Virus record (IMG/VR): IMGVR_UViG_3300032294_000883
Coordinates: 1-30,917 of that record
Length of the DNA: 30,917 nucleotides
Direction: 5' to 3' (one strand)
Source: a virus
A program made the position numbers and the translations under genes. The notes below the pieces were generated by a model. The model saw only the letters and a program-made list of their open reading frames with translations, was not told the DNA's origin and did no database searches. Positions 11,236-20,192 of this stretch are shown in pieces (within the stretch, counting starts at the first letter, position 1; each line of letters begins with the position of its first letter).

Positions 11236-11366
11236 TGGAAGACTGCGACCAGTGGTGGTACCACCAAGACCAACTCATGCAGGAGCTCGAGGAGCAAGAA
11301 CGAATCGACGCCTGCAACCAAGCCCTCTCGAAGTACACACAGGAAACACACGATGAACCAGTCTGA
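11235..11366 (+). CDS. Small acidic protein, 43 aa
   Basis: The ATG overlaps the previous stop (TGATG). The product (MEDCDQWWYHQDQLMQELEE, then QERIDACNQALSKYTQETHD) is acidic and helical and has two cysteines. Its end overlaps the start of the ERF gene by 14 bases. No function is assigned. Confidence 0.62.
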   Translation: MEDCDQWWYHQDQLMQELEEQERIDACNQALSKYTQETHDEPV

Positions 11367-11898
11367 ATCTATCGCGGCCCTCGCCGCTGCTCTGTCCAAG
11401 GCACAGGCCGACATCACCGGAGCCTTGAAGGACAGCGCGAACCCGTTCTTCAAGTCCAAGTACGCCGACCTCGCGTCCTGCTGGGACGCTTGCCGTGCGC
11501 AGCTCACCGCCAACAACCTCGCCGTCATCCAGACGACCGAGATCGGCGAGACCGGGGCGGTGCTCGTCACCACCCTCGCGCACTCGTCGGGCGAGTGGAT
11601 TCGCGGGTACCTGCCCATCCTGTCCAAGGACGCAGGACCGCAGGGGCAGGGATCGGGCATCACCTACGCCCGCAGGTATGCGCTTGCCGCTATCGTCGGC
11701 CTCGCCCAGATCGACGACGACGCCGAGGCAGCGCAGGCCCGTGGCAAGCCCGAGGTCAAGCCCGACCCCGACCTTGCCAAGAAGGTAGCCGAGTGCCAGA
11801 CCCTCGCCGACCTGACCGCCTTGTTCAAAGGTCTCACCGAGGCGCAGCGTCAGGCATCCTCCGGCATCTTCGCCGCCCGCAAGAAGGAACTCGGCTGA
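11353..11898 (+). CDS. ERF-family single-strand annealing protein
   Basis: 181 residues. SIAALAAALSKAQADITGAL, NPFFKSKYADLASCWDACRA and GPQGQGSGITYARRYALAAI are diagnostic of the ERF superfamily of phage recombinases; GITYARRYAL is the most conserved part. It anneals complementary single strands and works with the exonuclease encoded next. The C-terminal tail is a Lys/Asp-rich linker with a short helical domain. The ribosome site is AGGAAA with an ACACAC leader before ATG 11353. Confidence 0.93.
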   Translation: MNQSESIAALAAALSKAQADITGALKDSANPFFKSKYADLASCWDACRAQLTANNLAVIQTTEIGETGAVLVTTLAHSSGEWIRGYLPILSKDAGPQGQGSGITYARRYALAAIVGLAQIDDDAEAAQARGKPEVKPDPDLAKKVAECQTLADLTALFKGLTEAQRQASSGIFAARKKELG

Positions 11899-12506
11899 TG
11901 GAGCAGCGTACCCCCGAATGGTTCGCCAAGCGGCTCGGGCTCGTGACCGCCAGCCGGATTGCCGATGTCATGGCGAAGGTCAAGACCGGCACAGCCGCCT
12001 CACGCAGCGGGTACATGACGCAACTCGTGACGGAACGCCTCACAAGACAGCCTACGGAGGGCTACCAGAGCGCCGCGATGGAGTGGGGTATCGAGCAGGA
12101 GGGTGCCGCCCGCGCCGCCTACGAAGCCCGTACAGGCGTCCTCGTGGATGAGGTGGACTTCGTGCGCCACCCCACCCTTGAGGCCGGTGCCTCTCCCGAC
12201 GGGCTGGTCGGGGAGGACGGATGCATCGAGATTAAGTGTCCGAACACGGCCACGATGCTCGAGTACATCGAGGACCGTTCTGTCCCCCGCAAGTACCTCC
12301 TGCAGATTCAGTGGCAACTTGCATGCACAGGTCGCAACTGGTGCGACTTCGTGGCCTACGACCCCCGCCTGCCGGAGCACCTGCAACTGCTGGTCATCCG
12401 GGTGCCGCGTGATGAGGATGTCATCGAGCAGATCGCCGCCGAGGTAGGCCGGTTCGTGACCGAGCTGCGGGATCGGGTCGAGCACCTGCGGGAGCTGCGC
12501 CTGTGA
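11898..12506 (+). CDS. YqaJ/lambda-type alkaline exonuclease
   Basis: 202 residues with the full YqaJ recombinase pattern: RTPEWFAKRLGLVTASRIAD at the N-terminus, ASPDGLV with Asp101, EIKCP with Glu111-x-Lys113, and QIQWQLACTGRNWCDFVAYD for the Gln-x-Gln motif. It degrades one strand of duplex ends to give single-strand tails for the ERF protein. The ATG overlaps the previous stop (TGATG). This pairing is a SynExo-type recombination system. Confidence 0.94.
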   Translation: MEQRTPEWFAKRLGLVTASRIADVMAKVKTGTAASRSGYMTQLVTERLTRQPTEGYQSAAMEWGIEQEGAARAAYEARTGVLVDEVDFVRHPTLEAGASPDGLVGEDGCIEIKCPNTATMLEYIEDRSVPRKYLLQIQWQLACTGRNWCDFVAYDPRLPEHLQLLVIRVPRDEDVIEQIAAEVGRFVTELRDRVEHLRELRL

Positions 12507-13401: not shown

Positions 13402-13607
13402 CGCAAACCGAACAGATCCGCGCCCACCTAGTATCGGGCCGCGATATCACACCCCTTGAAGCACTCGACCGCTACGGCTGTTTCCGGCTCGCCGCTCGGG
13501 TCGCTGACCTTCGTGCCACCGGCCTCGATGTCCAGACCGTGACCGAGGAGCATAACGGGAAGCGGTATGCCCGGTACCGGCTCGTCGGGCAGCTCGAGCT
13601 CGTATGA
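13398..13607 (+). CDS. HTH_39-like winged-helix protein
   Basis: 69 residues. TQTEQIRAHLVSGRDITPLE, then ALDRYGCFRLAARVADLRAT, is the recognisable short helix-turn-helix of the HTH_39 type, which often accompanies phage recombination genes. It probably binds DNA, possibly as a regulator. ATGA overlaps at both ends show that it is part of the operon. Confidence 0.8.
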   Translation: MTQTEQIRAHLVSGRDITPLEALDRYGCFRLAARVADLRATGLDVQTVTEEHNGKRYARYRLVGQLELV

Positions 13608-13888
13608 ACCTACGCAAGCAGGCACGAGGCCGGGGCTGCACCGTCAGGCTCTCCGGAGTGTGCAACCACAACTCCGAGACGGTCGTCCTGGCGCATATCC
13701 GCATGGCCGGGATCTCCGGCATGGGGCTCAAGGCCGACGACCTGCTCGGGGCATGGGCGTGTTCAGCTTGCCACGACGCCATCGATCGCCGCTCCCACCC
13801 CGACCTCGAGCGCGACTATGTGCGCCTCGCCCACTTCGAGGGCATGGTGCGCACCATCGCTCAACTGAGGTCGGAGGGGATCGTCTGA
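13604..13888 (+). CDS. YbcO-like (DUF1364) putative nuclease
   Basis: 94 residues. The pattern RGRGCTVRLSGVCNHNSETV, then VLAHIRMAG and WACSACHDAIDRR, is typical of YbcO/DUF1364, an HNH-like fold with Cys and His residues for metal. In lambdoid phages these proteins occur with NinB in recombination regions. It may be a structure-specific endonuclease; substrate is unknown. It is the last rightward gene, converging on the tail fibre gene with one base between stops. Confidence 0.88.
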   Translation: MNLRKQARGRGCTVRLSGVCNHNSETVVLAHIRMAGISGMGLKADDLLGAWACSACHDAIDRRSHPDLERDYVRLAHFEGMVRTIAQLRSEGIV

Positions 13889-13889
13889 C

Positions 13890-14591
13890 TTACGGCCCAG
13901 CATCGCGCCAAGCGCCGCCGCTGTAGAAGTAAAGTTTGTTGTTCGTGGTGTTCACGACGATGGGTGCCATGCCCGTGATAGCGGTCGGCGTTCCGGTCGG
14001 CGTACCAGCGCAGGTCGGGACATACAAAAAGCCGTTGGTCGCGGTCGTGGCGAGGGCAACGGAGCCGCCTGCAACGACATTGCCGTCGGAGGTGAGGCTC
14101 ATGCGCTCGGTGCCGGACACCTGCCACACATAATTGCCAGCACCGGGCAGGTCGAATGTCATCTGCGGAGCAGCAGCCCCGAAGCCTCCGGTAATGGTGC
14201 CGTAATTGGTAGCCGCAGCGGTGAACTTGAGCTGCGCTTGCGTGTTTGCGCCACCGCCCGAATTGCTCAACCGCAGGACTTCGACAACGGCTCCGCCAGA
14301 TGCGGCAGAGATGTGCGTCGTGACCGCAGGCGAAGCCGTCCCGATGCCGAGTTTGGTGCCATCGAACACTAGCGCCGATCCGCTCGTCGCCGCCTTGGAC
14401 GCATTCAGATACAGGACGCCGTTGACGGTGCCGCCAGTGAGCGTGGCTGAGAGCATGGAGGCAGCGCGACCTGCGGTGAGATCGGAAACTGCAACCTTTA
14501 CGGTGCTTCCAGACTGCACAACCGGCACAACTTCCGTCCCAGCAAGCGGGGTGGTCGCGGCGGTCAGCTGGGAGATTTTCTTGTCGGCCAT
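13890..14591 (-). CDS. Tail fibre-like protein, 233 aa
   Basis: The N-terminal adaptor-like motif (MADKKISQLTAATTPLAGTE, then VVPVVQSGSTVKVAVSDL) is shared with the 230-residue protein at 3388-4080. The rest is beta-rich, Ala/Gly/Thr/Ser-rich, with repeats of the type seen in bacteriophage fibres (GTKLGIGTASPAVTTHISA, then ERMSLTSDGNVVAGGSVALA). No chaperone or peptidase motif is seen. It is the last leftward gene and follows the tailspike; receptor binding is likely but unproven. Confidence 0.78.
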   Translation of the reverse strand: MADKKISQLTAATTPLAGTEVVPVVQSGSTVKVAVSDLTAGRAASMLSATLTGGTVNGVLYLNASKAATSGSALVFDGTKLGIGTASPAVTTHISAASGGAVVEVLRLSNSGGGANTQAQLKFTAAATNYGTITGGFGAAAPQMTFDLPGAGNYVWQVSGTERMSLTSDGNVVAGGSVALATTATNGFLYVPTCAGTPTGTPTAITGMAPIVVNTTNNKLYFYSGGAWRDAGP

Positions 14592-14627: not shown

Positions 14628-16706
14628 TTAATACGTCGAGCGGCAAAGCTCATACGCATAAACATCCGCGCCTATGATCTTCGTGTAGAACACAATGTGT
14701 CCGATGCTTGAAAAATTGACGCCGCCGTTTAGCAGCATGTATGCCCCGGCAGAAAAGGTCATGTTGGTGTTCTGCAGATTGAAGATCAAAAGCCTTCCAG
14801 CCGTTGAACCTGTAGACAACTTGTTGACCGTAACAGCTGAAGAAGCGTTGCAGTAAAACAAACTGCCGCCAGGAACGCTCAGAACGTTGCTCGAAACATC
14901 CAGTTGAGACAATCCGGAGTCTGCTCCTTCAAGGGCGATTGCGCCGCGAGACAGCATCGGAATCTCCAATTCCCCGGACTTGCTGATAGCGGTGGTCATG
15001 CCGAACACGCCACCAGACGACAGGTCGCTGATCTTGGTAGTACCTGCACCGCCAATCCACGGCCCTCGAGGCAAGAAACTGTTGGACAGCAGATTTAAGC
15101 GCGGCGAGGTGCCATTGATGCGTACACCAATCACGCCAGCAATAGACCCGCCAGAACCTCCGAACGAGAGATGGTTGTCTGAGCAGGTTTTTCCGGGTCC
15201 GCCGAAAGTGCCTGTGCTCGTGATGTCGATTAGGGTTTGATTGGCAATGCTCCCAGCCGCAAAGGTGTTTCCGACGTAGTAATTCCCGTATGTGAAATCG
15301 GTGCTTTTCAGATGCGTTCCGTAACCTGCAAATGTAAAGCAGCCCAGCACCTTGTTGTAGTCGCCCTGATCCCAGATGCCAACCCCGCCCTCGCCGCCTT
15401 CCAGGTAACAGTTGCTGACCAGCGTCGCTCTGGCATTGTCGGTGAGATGGATTCCGTTGTAAGTAATCGATGCCTCGCAGTCCTCGATAGATGCGTTGTA
15501 GGTGTATGCCGTGCCGCCGCCGACGCCGACCTTGTAACCCGTCAAGAATCCCCGACTCGTCACTTTCCGCAGCGTCTGCAACCCGCTGTCATATTGATGG
15601 TTCAAGAACACGCCGATTCCGGTTCGAGAAGCGCCGAGCCCACTAACGGCCCAATCCTTGTTCAGGACGTAGGTGTGGGAGATTTCGCTGGTCGTCATCC
15701 AGTCGGACTCGATGCCGTTTCCCGTGCCGCGCTGGAAAACCGCGCAGCGGTCTATTTTCCCGACCCCATAGAAAGCCTCAAGATCAACCACTGGCGTAGT
15801 CGAGTTGCCATCAAAAGCCACGCCCTGCACGTCAAACGTTCCAGCCGTTGTCGTAACGATTGGAACGCTGATCTTGAACACGGGCGCATTGGTGGTGCTT
15901 TTGATCACAGTGCCGGACGGGAAATTCCAAGTTGCGAACGGATTCCCAAACCCATCACCGACGATCTTGAGGATTTTGTTTTGCAGCCCGCCGCCAGTCA
16001 CCGTCAAGCCCGTTACCGAATAGGTTCCAGACGGAATGTACAGCGTGATTGAATTGCTGAAACAGTAATCGATAGCGGCCTGCATCGCTGCCGTGTCGTT
16101 CGTCGCGCCGTCGCCCACCGCGCCGAAGTCTTTTGCGCTCACCGTGTCGCGCAGTTTGCTGTTCACCGAGCGCGGCACCGCGCCGGTCCCGGACTGCGTG
16201 AAGATGTCGAGCGAGGCATCGACCCCGACCGTCGCCACCGGCAGACCGTTCGCATCGAAGGAGAGGAACTTGCTCGCTCGGGCGCTGGCCGCAGGAACCT
16301 GCGCAGACATCACCGCATCAGATGCAGGGTACTTAAGCGATCGCGCAGACTCCTCGCCGAGCTGCTGCGTGAGCATGGTCACCTTGTCGAGCGCGGTCTC
16401 GAGCGACTCAGCCGGGAGCCGGTCGTTCGGCAGCAGGTCGGTCTCCTGCGTCGCCGCGATGTTGCGCCGGATGGTGACAGTCACCGCCGCAGCAGGGGCC
16501 GTGAGCATCGTCACCGTGCCGCCAGCCTCGTTCCCGGCACCGCTCACCGTGTAGTTGGTGGTCAGCACCTGGACGGTCTCGGTCGTGCCAGAGCGCAGGA
16601 TGACCTGTAGGTCGGCGGCTGCGAGGAAGTAGAACGGCACCGCAAAGGCGGTGGTCGACCCGTTGCCGGTATAACTGACCTTGCTGGTTGTGGATGAGAC
16701 GGTCAT
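14628..16706 (-). CDS. Tailspike with right-handed beta-helix (pectate-lyase-3-like) domain
   Basis: 692 residues. A particle-binding N-terminus (VSYTGNGSTTAFAVPFYFLA, then NDRLPAESLETALDKVTMLT) resembles podoviral tail fibre heads. DFGAVGDGATNDTAAMQAAI (residues 193-212) opens a right-handed beta-helix of the Pectate_lyase_3 type, found in depolymerising tailspikes. The C-terminal part is beta-rich. It would recognise and perhaps digest a host surface polysaccharide. The beta-helix part is visibly less GC-rich than its neighbours, consistent with domain exchange. Confidence 0.9.
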   Translation of the reverse strand: MTVSSTTSKVSYTGNGSTTAFAVPFYFLAAADLQVILRSGTTETVQVLTTNYTVSGAGNEAGGTVTMLTAPAAAVTVTIRRNIAATQETDLLPNDRLPAESLETALDKVTMLTQQLGEESARSLKYPASDAVMSAQVPAASARASKFLSFDANGLPVATVGVDASLDIFTQSGTGAVPRSVNSKLRDTVSAKDFGAVGDGATNDTAAMQAAIDYCFSNSITLYIPSGTYSVTGLTVTGGGLQNKILKIVGDGFGNPFATWNFPSGTVIKSTTNAPVFKISVPIVTTTAGTFDVQGVAFDGNSTTPVVDLEAFYGVGKIDRCAVFQRGTGNGIESDWMTTSEISHTYVLNKDWAVSGLGASRTGIGVFLNHQYDSGLQTLRKVTSRGFLTGYKVGVGGGTAYTYNASIEDCEASITYNGIHLTDNARATLVSNCYLEGGEGGVGIWDQGDYNKVLGCFTFAGYGTHLKSTDFTYGNYYVGNTFAAGSIANQTLIDITSTGTFGGPGKTCSDNHLSFGGSGGSIAGVIGVRINGTSPRLNLLSNSFLPRGPWIGGAGTTKISDLSSGGVFGMTTAISKSGELEIPMLSRGAIALEGADSGLSQLDVSSNVLSVPGGSLFYCNASSAVTVNKLSTGSTAGRLLIFNLQNTNMTFSAGAYMLLNGGVNFSSIGHIVFYTKIIGADVYAYELCRSTY

Positions 16707-16709
16707 TAG

Positions 16710-19700
16710 TTACCTCGCAGCGCCGGACATCATATCCTGCTGCGTCTGCATAAAATAGTCAATTTCGCCCTGAATGTCAGGGAACTCCTGCAGTACCTGC
16801 TCGCGGGCAAGCTTTCGGTATTCGCCCACGATGGAGTCGATGATTTCAGCCTTCGTGCCATCGATGCCGTCGGTGCCTTGGTTGTAGATCTCCGACAGGA
16901 AGTGCTCGCCTTTGATCATGGCGTTGAGCAGGTCCTTCGCGCCCATGTCGTAGTTCGGGTGCTTCAGCTCGTTGCCCGCAAGTTCGACGTACCGGCTGTA
17001 CGCGCCGGGGTAGTTGTTCAAGTCGATGTTCACGCCTTGGAAGGTCGCCTTCTTGCTCGGCATCGAGACGGCCTTGCCAAGACGCAGCATCTCCTCGTCG
17101 ATCGGCTCGTTCTTAGCGGGCTTGGTGTAGATGGGGCTGAACACGTCATACGCCCAGCCGAGGCCGGACTGGTGTGACACCGGGCGACCCCACAGGTCAC
17201 GCCGCAGAGGCAGGTCATCCGAGAGTCCGGGGACGCGCCGCTTGATGGCATCGAGCATGTTGAACACTTCGCGCCCATAGGGGTCAGCCGCTCGCGCAGC
17301 CTCGCCGACGATGGCCGGGACGGTCGAGCCGACAAGCCGCTGCACGAAGCTCTCCGTGTACCGCTTCGGGTCGGAGATGGCCTCGAACAGGTCGGCAAGG
17401 CCGGAGAGGTAGGTCTTGCTCATCACCGTCGCCGAGATGGACGCGACCGCAGCCACCGCCGCCTCGCCGACGCTCTCCTCGGTGTCCTCGTCCTCGGAGT
17501 TGTTCAGAATCTCGACCATTTCTGCAGCAAGGCCAAGGAGCGATCCGGCAGGGTCGAGCCGGTTGTAGGCATACCAACGGTCGCCGACCTTGATGCTGTT
17601 GCGCTGCCAGCCGGTGCGCTCGAGCGCCTGCCGCTCGCGAGTGTCCTTCGGACCGCTCCCGCTCACCACGCCGGACATCGCCATGTCAGCCGCGACCATC
17701 ATCAGTGCCGTGCCGGTCGAGAGTCGGGCAAGGGCCAGCTCCTGTCGCGCCCCGCCCGCCGAGAGGTCAGCGCGGACGCTTGCCATCAGCGGCGCAAGGG
17801 GGGTGCGCTCGAACGTAAACTTGAGGATGTTGGCCGGGGTGCGGACGAACGGAAGGATGACCGTCAGCGCCGGGAACTGCGCCTTGAGGCTTTGCAGCGA
17901 CTGCGCGAGTTTGCCGGGGCTGTTGGTGAAAGTCTGGTACAGCGCCTGATCAACCGCCGACATCCGCAGGTTCTCGGGCGGGTTCTCAAGGAGTTCAGCC
18001 ACGCGCCCCTTGAGGCCGTCAGCCGGGATGAGCCCAGAGTGAACCTCGCCCGCCGCCTGCCGCAGCGCCTGCGCGTTGAGCTCCATCCGGTACCCGATGG
18101 TCTTGAAGAACTCATCCTGCGCCGCGAGCGCACGGCCCGGTATGCGGATGATGTTTCCAAGGCCGTCCACGGCACGGCCCGCCCACGTCTGGCTGCTCAG
18201 GTTGAAGGCGTCCGAGGTGATGGATGCCGTCTGCGGCAGCTCGATCTTGTTCATGCCGAAGCCGGTCTCGCCGGTCTTCGCGGCCTTGGCGGCGTATCGG
18301 AGTCCGTCCTTGAAGGACTGCGTAAGCCCGAACCACTGCGTCATCGCCTCGCCAGCCTGCACCCCGCCGTTGTTGCCGAGGATGCTCGAGATGGTCGCAG
18401 CGGCCTTGCGCTCGTACATCTGCATAAACACGACGGCAGCGTTGGACATCGTGTTGACGATGTGCGTCTTCGGGCCAGAGAGCAGGCCCATAATCCACGC
18501 TTCCTGCATGGCATCCGTAGTCCGCGCCAAGACCCCGCGCTGGACGAAGGTGTCGAGCTCTTGGTACATCCCGGCGTTGGCGAGTTTCGCCACACGGTCG
18601 GCCATGTCGCGGGTGACCGCCGCGCCACCGTTGGCCTCGATGGCCTGACTGATGTCACGAAACCGCTCGGCAGATCCACCGGCAGGGATGCGCCACGAGG
18701 CCAGCGCACGGGCTGTCTCCGTCCGCGCTGCGATGACCTCGTTCTGGATGGCGTAGTGCGTCGCCAGCATCTTGCGGAAAGCGAACAGGTTCGCCTCGCT
18801 CGGGTTGGACGCGGCCTCCTTCGCCACCTCGGAGAGCTTCGACCCCGACGCCGCCCACAGTTGCCGCGCCGCGACAGACTGCTCGGCGTTCAGCGGGTCG
18901 CCCTTGCGCCGTGCCATGAGCACGTCCCAGGCGTTGACCTGCTGCGCATCGAGCTCGATCTCGGCGAACGAGCGCACCCCGCGCTGGGCCGTCTCGACCT
19001 GCGGGGCGAACTTGTCGGCCATGTCCTTGATGACGGTCTGCACGTCCTCCGGCGCGTTGATGCGGGCGAAGTTGATGTAAACCTGCCCCGGCTCGGTTCC
19101 ACGCGGAACCCCGGTGCCACCCTCGCCGACCACCTGAGCAGGGGTCACGCCCTCGGTCACTGCGGCGGCTCTGGCGGCTTTCAACTGCTCGGGCTGCGCC
19201 ATGCCCTTACCCGGCGCTGTCGTGACCGCAGGGACCGTCTCCGGGGCTTTGGCCTCGACCTTCGCCACCCCGACAAGGGGAGCGTCCGGGGCATCATCCC
19301 CAAGAGCGCGGAAGGCCGTCTCGTTCACCGTCGGGCGCTGGGCTTGGACCCCTGCGACCTGTTGAGCCTTGGCGATCTCCTCCTGCCGCAGCCGAGCGAT
19401 GCGGGCCTGACGCAAGGTCTTTAGCCCGAGCATGAGACCGTCCACGGCCACACCCACGCCCAGCCCCTCGACAGCGTTCTTGAACCGCCCCTCGGCGTTG
19501 CTGTCCTTCGGGTCAGATGCGAGGAAGTCCGTGACCGGATTCTTGAGGACCGGCACTTCCTGCAAGAGATTCGACAGGCGCTCCTCCTGCGGGTCGAATA
19601 CGGTGAAGTCCACCACCGCGCCGGTTCCCGCAGCCTTCGCCACGCGGCCCGCACGGGTCGCAGGCTTCAGCGCCTTGACCGCCTTGCTCGCGCCGACGAA

Positions 19701-20192
19701 CCCGGCGACGAACTGCGAAATGCCCTTCACCGCCTTGCCGGTCGTGGACTGCGGGTCTTCCACCCCGCCCGTGATGCGCTTGAGCGTCACCTGTGAGGAC
19801 ACGTCCCGACCCTGCGCACGCAGCGTCCGAAGCTCCTCGTAGGAGATCGGCTTGATGCCCTCGCGGGAGATCTCGAAGCCGCCCGTCTGGACTTGGTTCT
19901 CGACCCAATCGCCGATGTCGCCGAACAGGTTCAGCGTCTCCTGAGCCGCATCGCGGACGCCCGTGAACAGCGCACGCGGCAACTCGACCACGCCACGCGC
20001 CACATCGCCCACCACCGAGCGACCGGGAGCAGCCGGGGCCTGCGCGGGAGCGGGCTGTGCGGGAGCAGGAGTCTCGTCGGCGAACATCGCCTCGAGCTCA
20101 GCCGCCGCGCTCTGGTTGCTCGCTTCGTCGCGATAGGCCATGAAGGCGTTCGCGCCTTGGGCATCGTCGTTTCGCAGGTCAGGGGTTGCCAT
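16710..20192 (-). CDS. Large internal virion (ejection) protein, gp16-like position, LPD38-like C-terminus
   Basis: 1160 residues. An Ala/Pro-rich N-terminus and a central helical part (WIMGLLSGPKTHIVNTMSNA) lead to a C-terminal stretch DPYGREVFNMLDAIKRRVPG, then RRDLWGRPVSHQSGLGWAYD, that recalls large polyvalent-protein domain LPD38. Several hydrophobic segments (for example near residues 160-200 and 790-830) could insert into the membrane. It lies after the two smaller internal proteins, as T7 gp16 does, and probably forms the ejection core. No transglycosylase motif was seen. Confidence 0.82.
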   Translation of the reverse strand: MATPDLRNDDAQGANAFMAYRDEASNQSAAAELEAMFADETPAPAQPAPAQAPAAPGRSVVGDVARGVVELPRALFTGVRDAAQETLNLFGDIGDWVENQVQTGGFEISREGIKPISYEELRTLRAQGRDVSSQVTLKRITGGVEDPQSTTGKAVKGISQFVAGFVGASKAVKALKPATRAGRVAKAAGTGAVVDFTVFDPQEERLSNLLQEVPVLKNPVTDFLASDPKDSNAEGRFKNAVEGLGVGVAVDGLMLGLKTLRQARIARLRQEEIAKAQQVAGVQAQRPTVNETAFRALGDDAPDAPLVGVAKVEAKAPETVPAVTTAPGKGMAQPEQLKAARAAAVTEGVTPAQVVGEGGTGVPRGTEPGQVYINFARINAPEDVQTVIKDMADKFAPQVETAQRGVRSFAEIELDAQQVNAWDVLMARRKGDPLNAEQSVAARQLWAASGSKLSEVAKEAASNPSEANLFAFRKMLATHYAIQNEVIAARTETARALASWRIPAGGSAERFRDISQAIEANGGAAVTRDMADRVAKLANAGMYQELDTFVQRGVLARTTDAMQEAWIMGLLSGPKTHIVNTMSNAAVVFMQMYERKAAATISSILGNNGGVQAGEAMTQWFGLTQSFKDGLRYAAKAAKTGETGFGMNKIELPQTASITSDAFNLSSQTWAGRAVDGLGNIIRIPGRALAAQDEFFKTIGYRMELNAQALRQAAGEVHSGLIPADGLKGRVAELLENPPENLRMSAVDQALYQTFTNSPGKLAQSLQSLKAQFPALTVILPFVRTPANILKFTFERTPLAPLMASVRADLSAGGARQELALARLSTGTALMMVAADMAMSGVVSGSGPKDTRERQALERTGWQRNSIKVGDRWYAYNRLDPAGSLLGLAAEMVEILNNSEDEDTEESVGEAAVAAVASISATVMSKTYLSGLADLFEAISDPKRYTESFVQRLVGSTVPAIVGEAARAADPYGREVFNMLDAIKRRVPGLSDDLPLRRDLWGRPVSHQSGLGWAYDVFSPIYTKPAKNEPIDEEMLRLGKAVSMPSKKATFQGVNIDLNNYPGAYSRYVELAGNELKHPNYDMGAKDLLNAMIKGEHFLSEIYNQGTDGIDGTKAEIIDSIVGEYRKLAREQVLQEFPDIQGEIDYFMQTQQDMMSGAAR

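Follow-up and report, generated by a model that had tools for sequence, protein, structure and literature searches.

Probable recombinational exchange of a receptor cassette behind a conserved tailspike head in an uncultured phage group

The tailspike gene of an uncultured virus raises the question of whether its receptor-facing part was acquired separately from the head that would fix it to the virion. The window analysed here is the whole 30,917-nucleotide stretch of IMG/VR record IMGVR_UViG_3300032294_000883; its positions carry the prefix w in the text. The first-pass annotation had proposed that the gene is richer in A and T from about residue 210 to its end, both than its own N-terminal part and than the neighbouring genes, that a beta-helix receptor domain starts there, and that this domain was newly acquired behind a conserved head; windowed composition and separate trees for the two parts had been named as checks. 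We confirmed that composition is not uniform: GC was 0.663 for codons 1-210 vs 0.541 for codons 211-692, GC3 was 0.848 vs 0.651, and the maximum-likelihood change point fell at codon 210 for both measures. The log-likelihood gain of the GC3 change point was 14.8 (highest of 2,000 shuffles, 10.2), with a support range, within 2 log units, of codons 190-223. The AT-rich stretch is thus real, although it measures w14628-16076 and not w14628-16100 as first annotated. The comparison with the neighbouring genes also held, as the other stretches of ~1.45 kb outside the tailspike gene had a mean GC of 0.634 (sd 0.019) and none fell below 0.591. From its own residues and the codon usage of the phage, the C-terminal part of the spike (C-part) would be expected to have a GC of 0.596, and its composition departs further than residue content explains (z -9.1 for GC and -8.3 for GC3); overall, residue composition and codon choice each account for about half of the drop. 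Elsewhere in the window, a DUF1376 gene (w9484-9978; GC3 0.56, z -8.1) was as deviant as the spike C-part, and composition was also low in its neighbours (w9171-9494 and w10226-10519).

Table 1 Features of the tailspike locus and of the recombination genes in the window.
Feature	Position in window	Strand	Remarks
Tailspike ORF	14628-16706	-	692 aa; DFGAVGDGATNDT = residues 193-205
Conserved tailspike head, residues 1-190	16137-16706	-	putative virion attachment
Junction, residues 191-210, KDFGAVGDGATNDT...	16077-16136	-	from nucleotide identity profile
Exchanged AT-richer C-part, residues 211-692 and stop	14628-16076	-	putative beta-helix receptor domain
Internal virion protein gene, left-hand conserved flank	16710-20192	-	94-97% aa identity despite unrelated spikes
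Downstream fibre-like gene, fixed ends and variable middle	13890-14591	-	233 aa; 5' part exchanged together with the spike cassette
N-terminal peptide of the downstream protein, residues 1-42, MADKKISQL...	14466-14591	-	71-100% aa, 66-100% nt identity among sisters
Variable middle of the downstream protein, residues 43-158	14118-14465	-	26-65% aa identity among sisters except L004
C-terminal tip of the downstream protein, residues 159-233, ...FLYVPTCAGTPTGTPTAITGMAPIVVNTTNNKLYFYSGGAWRDAGP	13893-14117	-	exact C-terminus; dN/dS 0.024
YbcO-type nuclease gene, start of right-hand conserved flank	13604-13888	+	PF07102, 124.7 bits
ERF-family single-strand annealing protein	11353-11898	+	PF04404, 76.6 bits (cutoff 25)
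YqaJ-like viral exonuclease/recombinase	11913-12506	+	PF09588, 97.2 bits (cutoff 22)

Among the 22 spikes compared, GC was below that of the head in the C-part of all 22 and GC3 in 16. However, two of them (L020 and L022) showed almost no GC drop though both were clearly swapped, which makes GC alone a weak marker of a swap, and we rejected it as sufficient evidence for one. It is the relatives, and not GC, that support an exchange behind the conserved head. Across the sister contigs this shared head is followed by about ten unrelated C-terminal parts, while the core genes of these contigs stay close (terminase 87-98%; capsid 94-96% where the contig covers the capsid gene). Head residues 1-190 were 72-99% identical in the sister phages, and over 80 viral contigs carried a relative of residues 1-200; the C-part had only two relatives, both 98% identical and both in the head clade of the window. 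The C-parts of the sisters fell into separate BLAST clusters, and forcing them into alignment gave 22-30% amino acid identity, i.e. background. In most sisters, DNA homology to the window covered the upstream genes as well as the head and ended at w16059-16136 (codons 191-216), and protein identity dropped from ~90% to background within codons 196-215. The GC step marks the point at which shared sequence ends, and the first-pass interpretation of the C-part as a receptor-side domain acquired by exchange is supported. Within the junction, mean nucleotide identity over 13 relatives was 0.85 on the DFGA codons, 0.57 over codons 209-212 and 0.28 over codons 213-216. The homology of L022-L025 ended earlier, at w16316 (codon 130). 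On the other side of the spike, a short DNA match returned where the next gene begins (w14591-14607) in most sisters and was then lost inside that gene; full homology was back at w14051-14126, and only at w13863-13893 in L022-L025 and L098. Three sister contigs (L095, L096 and L098) additionally carry insertions of ~0.4-0.5 kb in the internal virion protein gene, relative to window positions ~19120-19251.

One cassette was found in two head lineages. Compared to L016, contig L018 was 92-100% identical up to +480 of the spike, unrelated up to ~+2820 and ~97% identical from +2880 onwards, whereas compared to L008 it was ~75% identical up to +420, mostly 88-100% identical from +480 to ~+2520, and ~80% identical thereafter. 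Accordingly, L008 and L018 shared 78% of nucleotides in the head, 96% in the spike C-part and 93-95% in the next gene, and the pair L016 and L018 showed the reverse, with 93% nucleotide identity in the head and 27% amino acid identity in the C-part. The crossovers of L018 lie near spike codon 150-160, upstream of the GC step, and inside the next gene. The histories of head and C-part were incongruent for this cassette of the family, as a head tree built from the first 150 codons rejected a clade of L007, L012 and L018 (delta lnL 188, p-AU 4e-69). This incongruence holds for the family, and the cassette of the window itself has only the two carriers within its own head clade. L018 is a single contig, and a mis-assembly is less likely because its cassette differs from that of L008 by 4%.

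These mosaics are very probably best explained by exchange of the receptor domain through homology-driven recombination. The head would fix the spike to the virion and stay in place, and everything from about codon 150-210 on would form an exchangeable cassette, consisting of the receptor-facing part of the spike together with all but the 3' end of the short fibre-like gene behind it. The crossovers lie in conserved DNA on either side of the cassette, on one side in the head, on the other at the 3' end of this fibre-like gene or in the recombination genes that follow. Annealing-type recombination between these conserved flanks in two co-infecting phages, followed by selection for a new receptor range, is the likeliest mechanism, and a swap would be expected to change host range. 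Close to the cassette, in the right-hand conserved flank, the phage encodes a YbcO nuclease and, in adjacent genes, an annealing protein and a partner exonuclease, both above their profile cutoffs (ERF and YqaJ; Table 1); this ERF/YqaJ pair may drive the exchange. Rad52-like phage recombinases, including Erf, do not depend on RecA, accept diverged DNA as substrate and generate mosaics from it, and most phage mosaics arise by homology-driven events of this kind (PMC3945230). Exchange between virulent and temperate phages was not seen in that study (PMC3945230), which we counted against our explanation. Terminators and promoters at the cassette edges were no more frequent than in shuffled sequences. 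The cassette of the window would have come from a lower-GC source, and composition would step down where the shared head ends. We infer its transfer from the family, because searches of viral contigs, GTDB genomes, isolate phages and plasmids yielded no donor.

Another explanation is that the parts were joined illegitimately, or by a site-specific event, at the DFGAVGDG codons, without homologous recombination between flanking sequences. In its favour, the small conserved DFGA island coincides with both the GC step and the end of homology, but the only resolvable crossover, that of L018, lies 30-60 codons upstream in conserved head DNA, L022-L025 break at codon 130, and constraint on the protein where the beta-helix begins could account for the island itself; we regard this explanation as unlikely. 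It is very unlikely that there was no exchange at all and that the C-part evolved fast in place under host pressure, its low GC reflecting the residue composition of a beta-helix. The contribution of residues to about half of the GC drop and the lower C-part GC in every spike compared are consistent with this, but GC3 falls too, identity collapses to background within ~20 codons, and the opposite affinities of head and C-part in L008, L016 and L018 argue against it. Finally, all contigs are metagenomic and repeated fibre genes are prone to mis-assembly, but that the sister contigs are assembly chimeras and their mosaics artefactual is scarcely credible, as the junctions recur in contigs of different samples (the L007-L012 cassette in six contigs, that of L022-L025 in four, and that of the window also in L004 and L005), and reading frames stay open across the junctions.

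The head alone matched the Phage_T7_tail profile (PF03906) over residues 6-84 with 25.5 bits, just above the cutoff of 25.2, and the whole protein with 22.6 bits; the match spans ~70 of 157 profile positions. Head residues 1-140 also matched a solved structure, the Cobetia phage Carin1 tailspike Dpo31 (PDB 28lx; E 5e-17). Unlike this homologous head, the window spike as a whole had no full-length match, none of the phage records matching the spike covering 80% of it. Neither 50,697 isolate phages nor 72,556 plasmids held a relative of the C-part, and its search against GTDB genomes returned a single match of 35 residues at 40% identity in Halalkalibacter. The assignment of a beta-helix to this position, as first annotated, draws partly on the conserved junction: Pect-lyase_RHGA_epim (PF12708, cutoff 27) matched the whole spike over residues 189-422 with 45.2 bits, but the match was lost once residues 1-210 were removed, and residues 211-692 alone reached 19.8 bits against Beta_helix, below the cutoff of 25.9. 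An AlphaFold prediction of the C-part from three sequences was unusable (pLDDT 29.5), so the fold rests on profile matches, from which the C-part is likely a beta-helix that would bind, and perhaps cleave, a surface polysaccharide.

The gene behind the spike belongs, for the most part, to the same unit. A homologue was found behind the spike in 15 of the 15 sister loci examined, with the conserved end in most, and the downstream protein travels with the spike C-part in L008 and L018. The exchange unit therefore comprises the spike C-part and most of the downstream gene, and is larger than first annotated. This linkage is not absolute, because L006 and L008 keep similar copies (88% amino acid identity in the middle) behind spike C-parts that are 45% identical. 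The homologue in L016 ends in a Peptidase_S74 chaperone domain, residues 169-233 of the downstream protein matched the spike of L037 (8e-23), and the L098 homologue matched the spikes of L087 (3e-35) and L098 (5e-22). Because of this Peptidase_S74 end and of end modules that occur on the spikes of other lineages, the downstream protein looks like a short fibre, and it may serve as a second receptor-binding protein; its AlphaFold model was unusable (pLDDT 52.6). Its N-terminal peptide was present in 49 isolate phages, mostly Flavobacterium siphophages (~52% identity), in proteins annotated as structural or minor tail protein. These siphophages are a very different phage type, and in Flavobacterium phage snork6-1 (L105, 4001-4138) and related siphophages the MADKKISQL-type start lies inside an annotated minor tail protein.

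A swap of this kind is known in itself, and is described here in an uncultured phage group whose closest terminase relative among isolates is that of Acetobacter phage phiAX1 (53%). Receptor-domain exchange behind conserved anchors is well documented (PMC6872550, PMC10408124). Similar to the T7 and K1F tail fibres, in which a conserved N-terminal anchor of ~140 residues precedes an exchanged C-terminal part (PMC6872550), the spikes combine a short conserved virion anchor, here with a weak PF03906 match, with unrelated receptor-side domains; unlike in T7 and K1F, the phage group is a distinct one and the next gene is exchanged too. In Kayfuna-, Kaguna- and Kutter-type tailspikes, conserved DNA motifs flank the receptor domain (PMC10408124), whereas in the phages analysed here the resolvable crossovers lie beyond the conserved islands. 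The Litunavirus tail fibre gene recombines with its adjacent downstream gene (PMC9786124), and here, too, recombination affects the spike gene jointly with the gene next to it, although this second gene differs in having fixed ends and a variable middle. In the branched receptor-binding systems of KP32 and G7C, a second protein is joined via a conserved N-terminal peptide (PMC6872550). The second fibre-like protein described here likewise has a short conserved N-terminal peptide, and the two proteins may, by analogy, work as such a system. However, Pfam and PHROG scans, which could miss a remote domain, detected no T4gp10-like docking domain in the spike, and in this the head differs from those of KP32 and G7C. 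The working exchange unit is two genes and not one domain, and close genomes with about ten receptor cassettes offer a natural experiment in which metagenomes could link host range to sequence.

The C-terminal tip of the downstream protein (~70 residues) was near-invariant and recurred on fibre-like proteins well outside this phage group. At least 424 viral contigs were related to the whole protein, and the tip alone as a query found 236. The match ended exactly at the stop codon in 78 extracted ORFs and 24 read singly; the 78 were extracted with a stop-ending pattern, and an unbiased listing gave the same ending. Tip carriers comprised nine N-terminal types (BLAST, first 60 residues), and in 54 of 77 carrier loci none of the 14 further window proteins tested had a relative. 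Among 13 longer carrier contigs outside the sister set, some of them fragments, none had a capsid relative and 12 were without a relative of the window terminase, the remaining one (L177) having one at 33%. Over the last 46 codons of 21 carriers of different types, median dN was 0.040, dS 1.28 and dN/dS 0.024, with the caveat that carriers were chosen by likeness to the window tip and the high protein identity partly reflects that choice; more diverged versions exist, e.g. in L252 (FLYIPGCAGTPTGTPTAFTGRVPLV). Synonymous sites were near saturation (53% differences at 4-fold sites, median dS 1.3), by which a recent spread by copying was ruled out, and the tip is by these rates old and strongly constrained.

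Within the searchable libraries and open-access literature, we could not match the tip to anything described. It was absent from 50,697 isolate phages (best match 19 residues, E 5), gave chance-level matches only to solved structures, had no match in Pfam or NCBIfam and marginal ones in PHROGs, and a search of open-access papers for the letters of the tip and N-terminal peptides returned no paper on either. Tentatively, the downstream gene may reveal an inverted layout of fibre-like proteins, with fixed ends around a variable middle and with a tip that is portable, old and ends at the stop codon. Because a fibre usually varies most at its end, an invariant tip suggests one universal partner or role, which could be a surface component common to hosts, a chaperone of the phage, or a folding or trimer cap. 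This raises the question of what is contacted through the same end by so many different phages, and the tip provides a ready marker for phage fibre genes missed by existing family libraries.

Further fibre-like genes were observed in this group. L015 carries three in tandem, 12 to ~3200 bases behind the spike, two with the MADKKISQL start and one of 540 aa in between. In the window itself, w3388-4080 encodes a second short protein of the KKI type (MATKKITQF...), possibly a third fibre-like protein, in which residues 81-229 match the L052 spike at its end (808-945).
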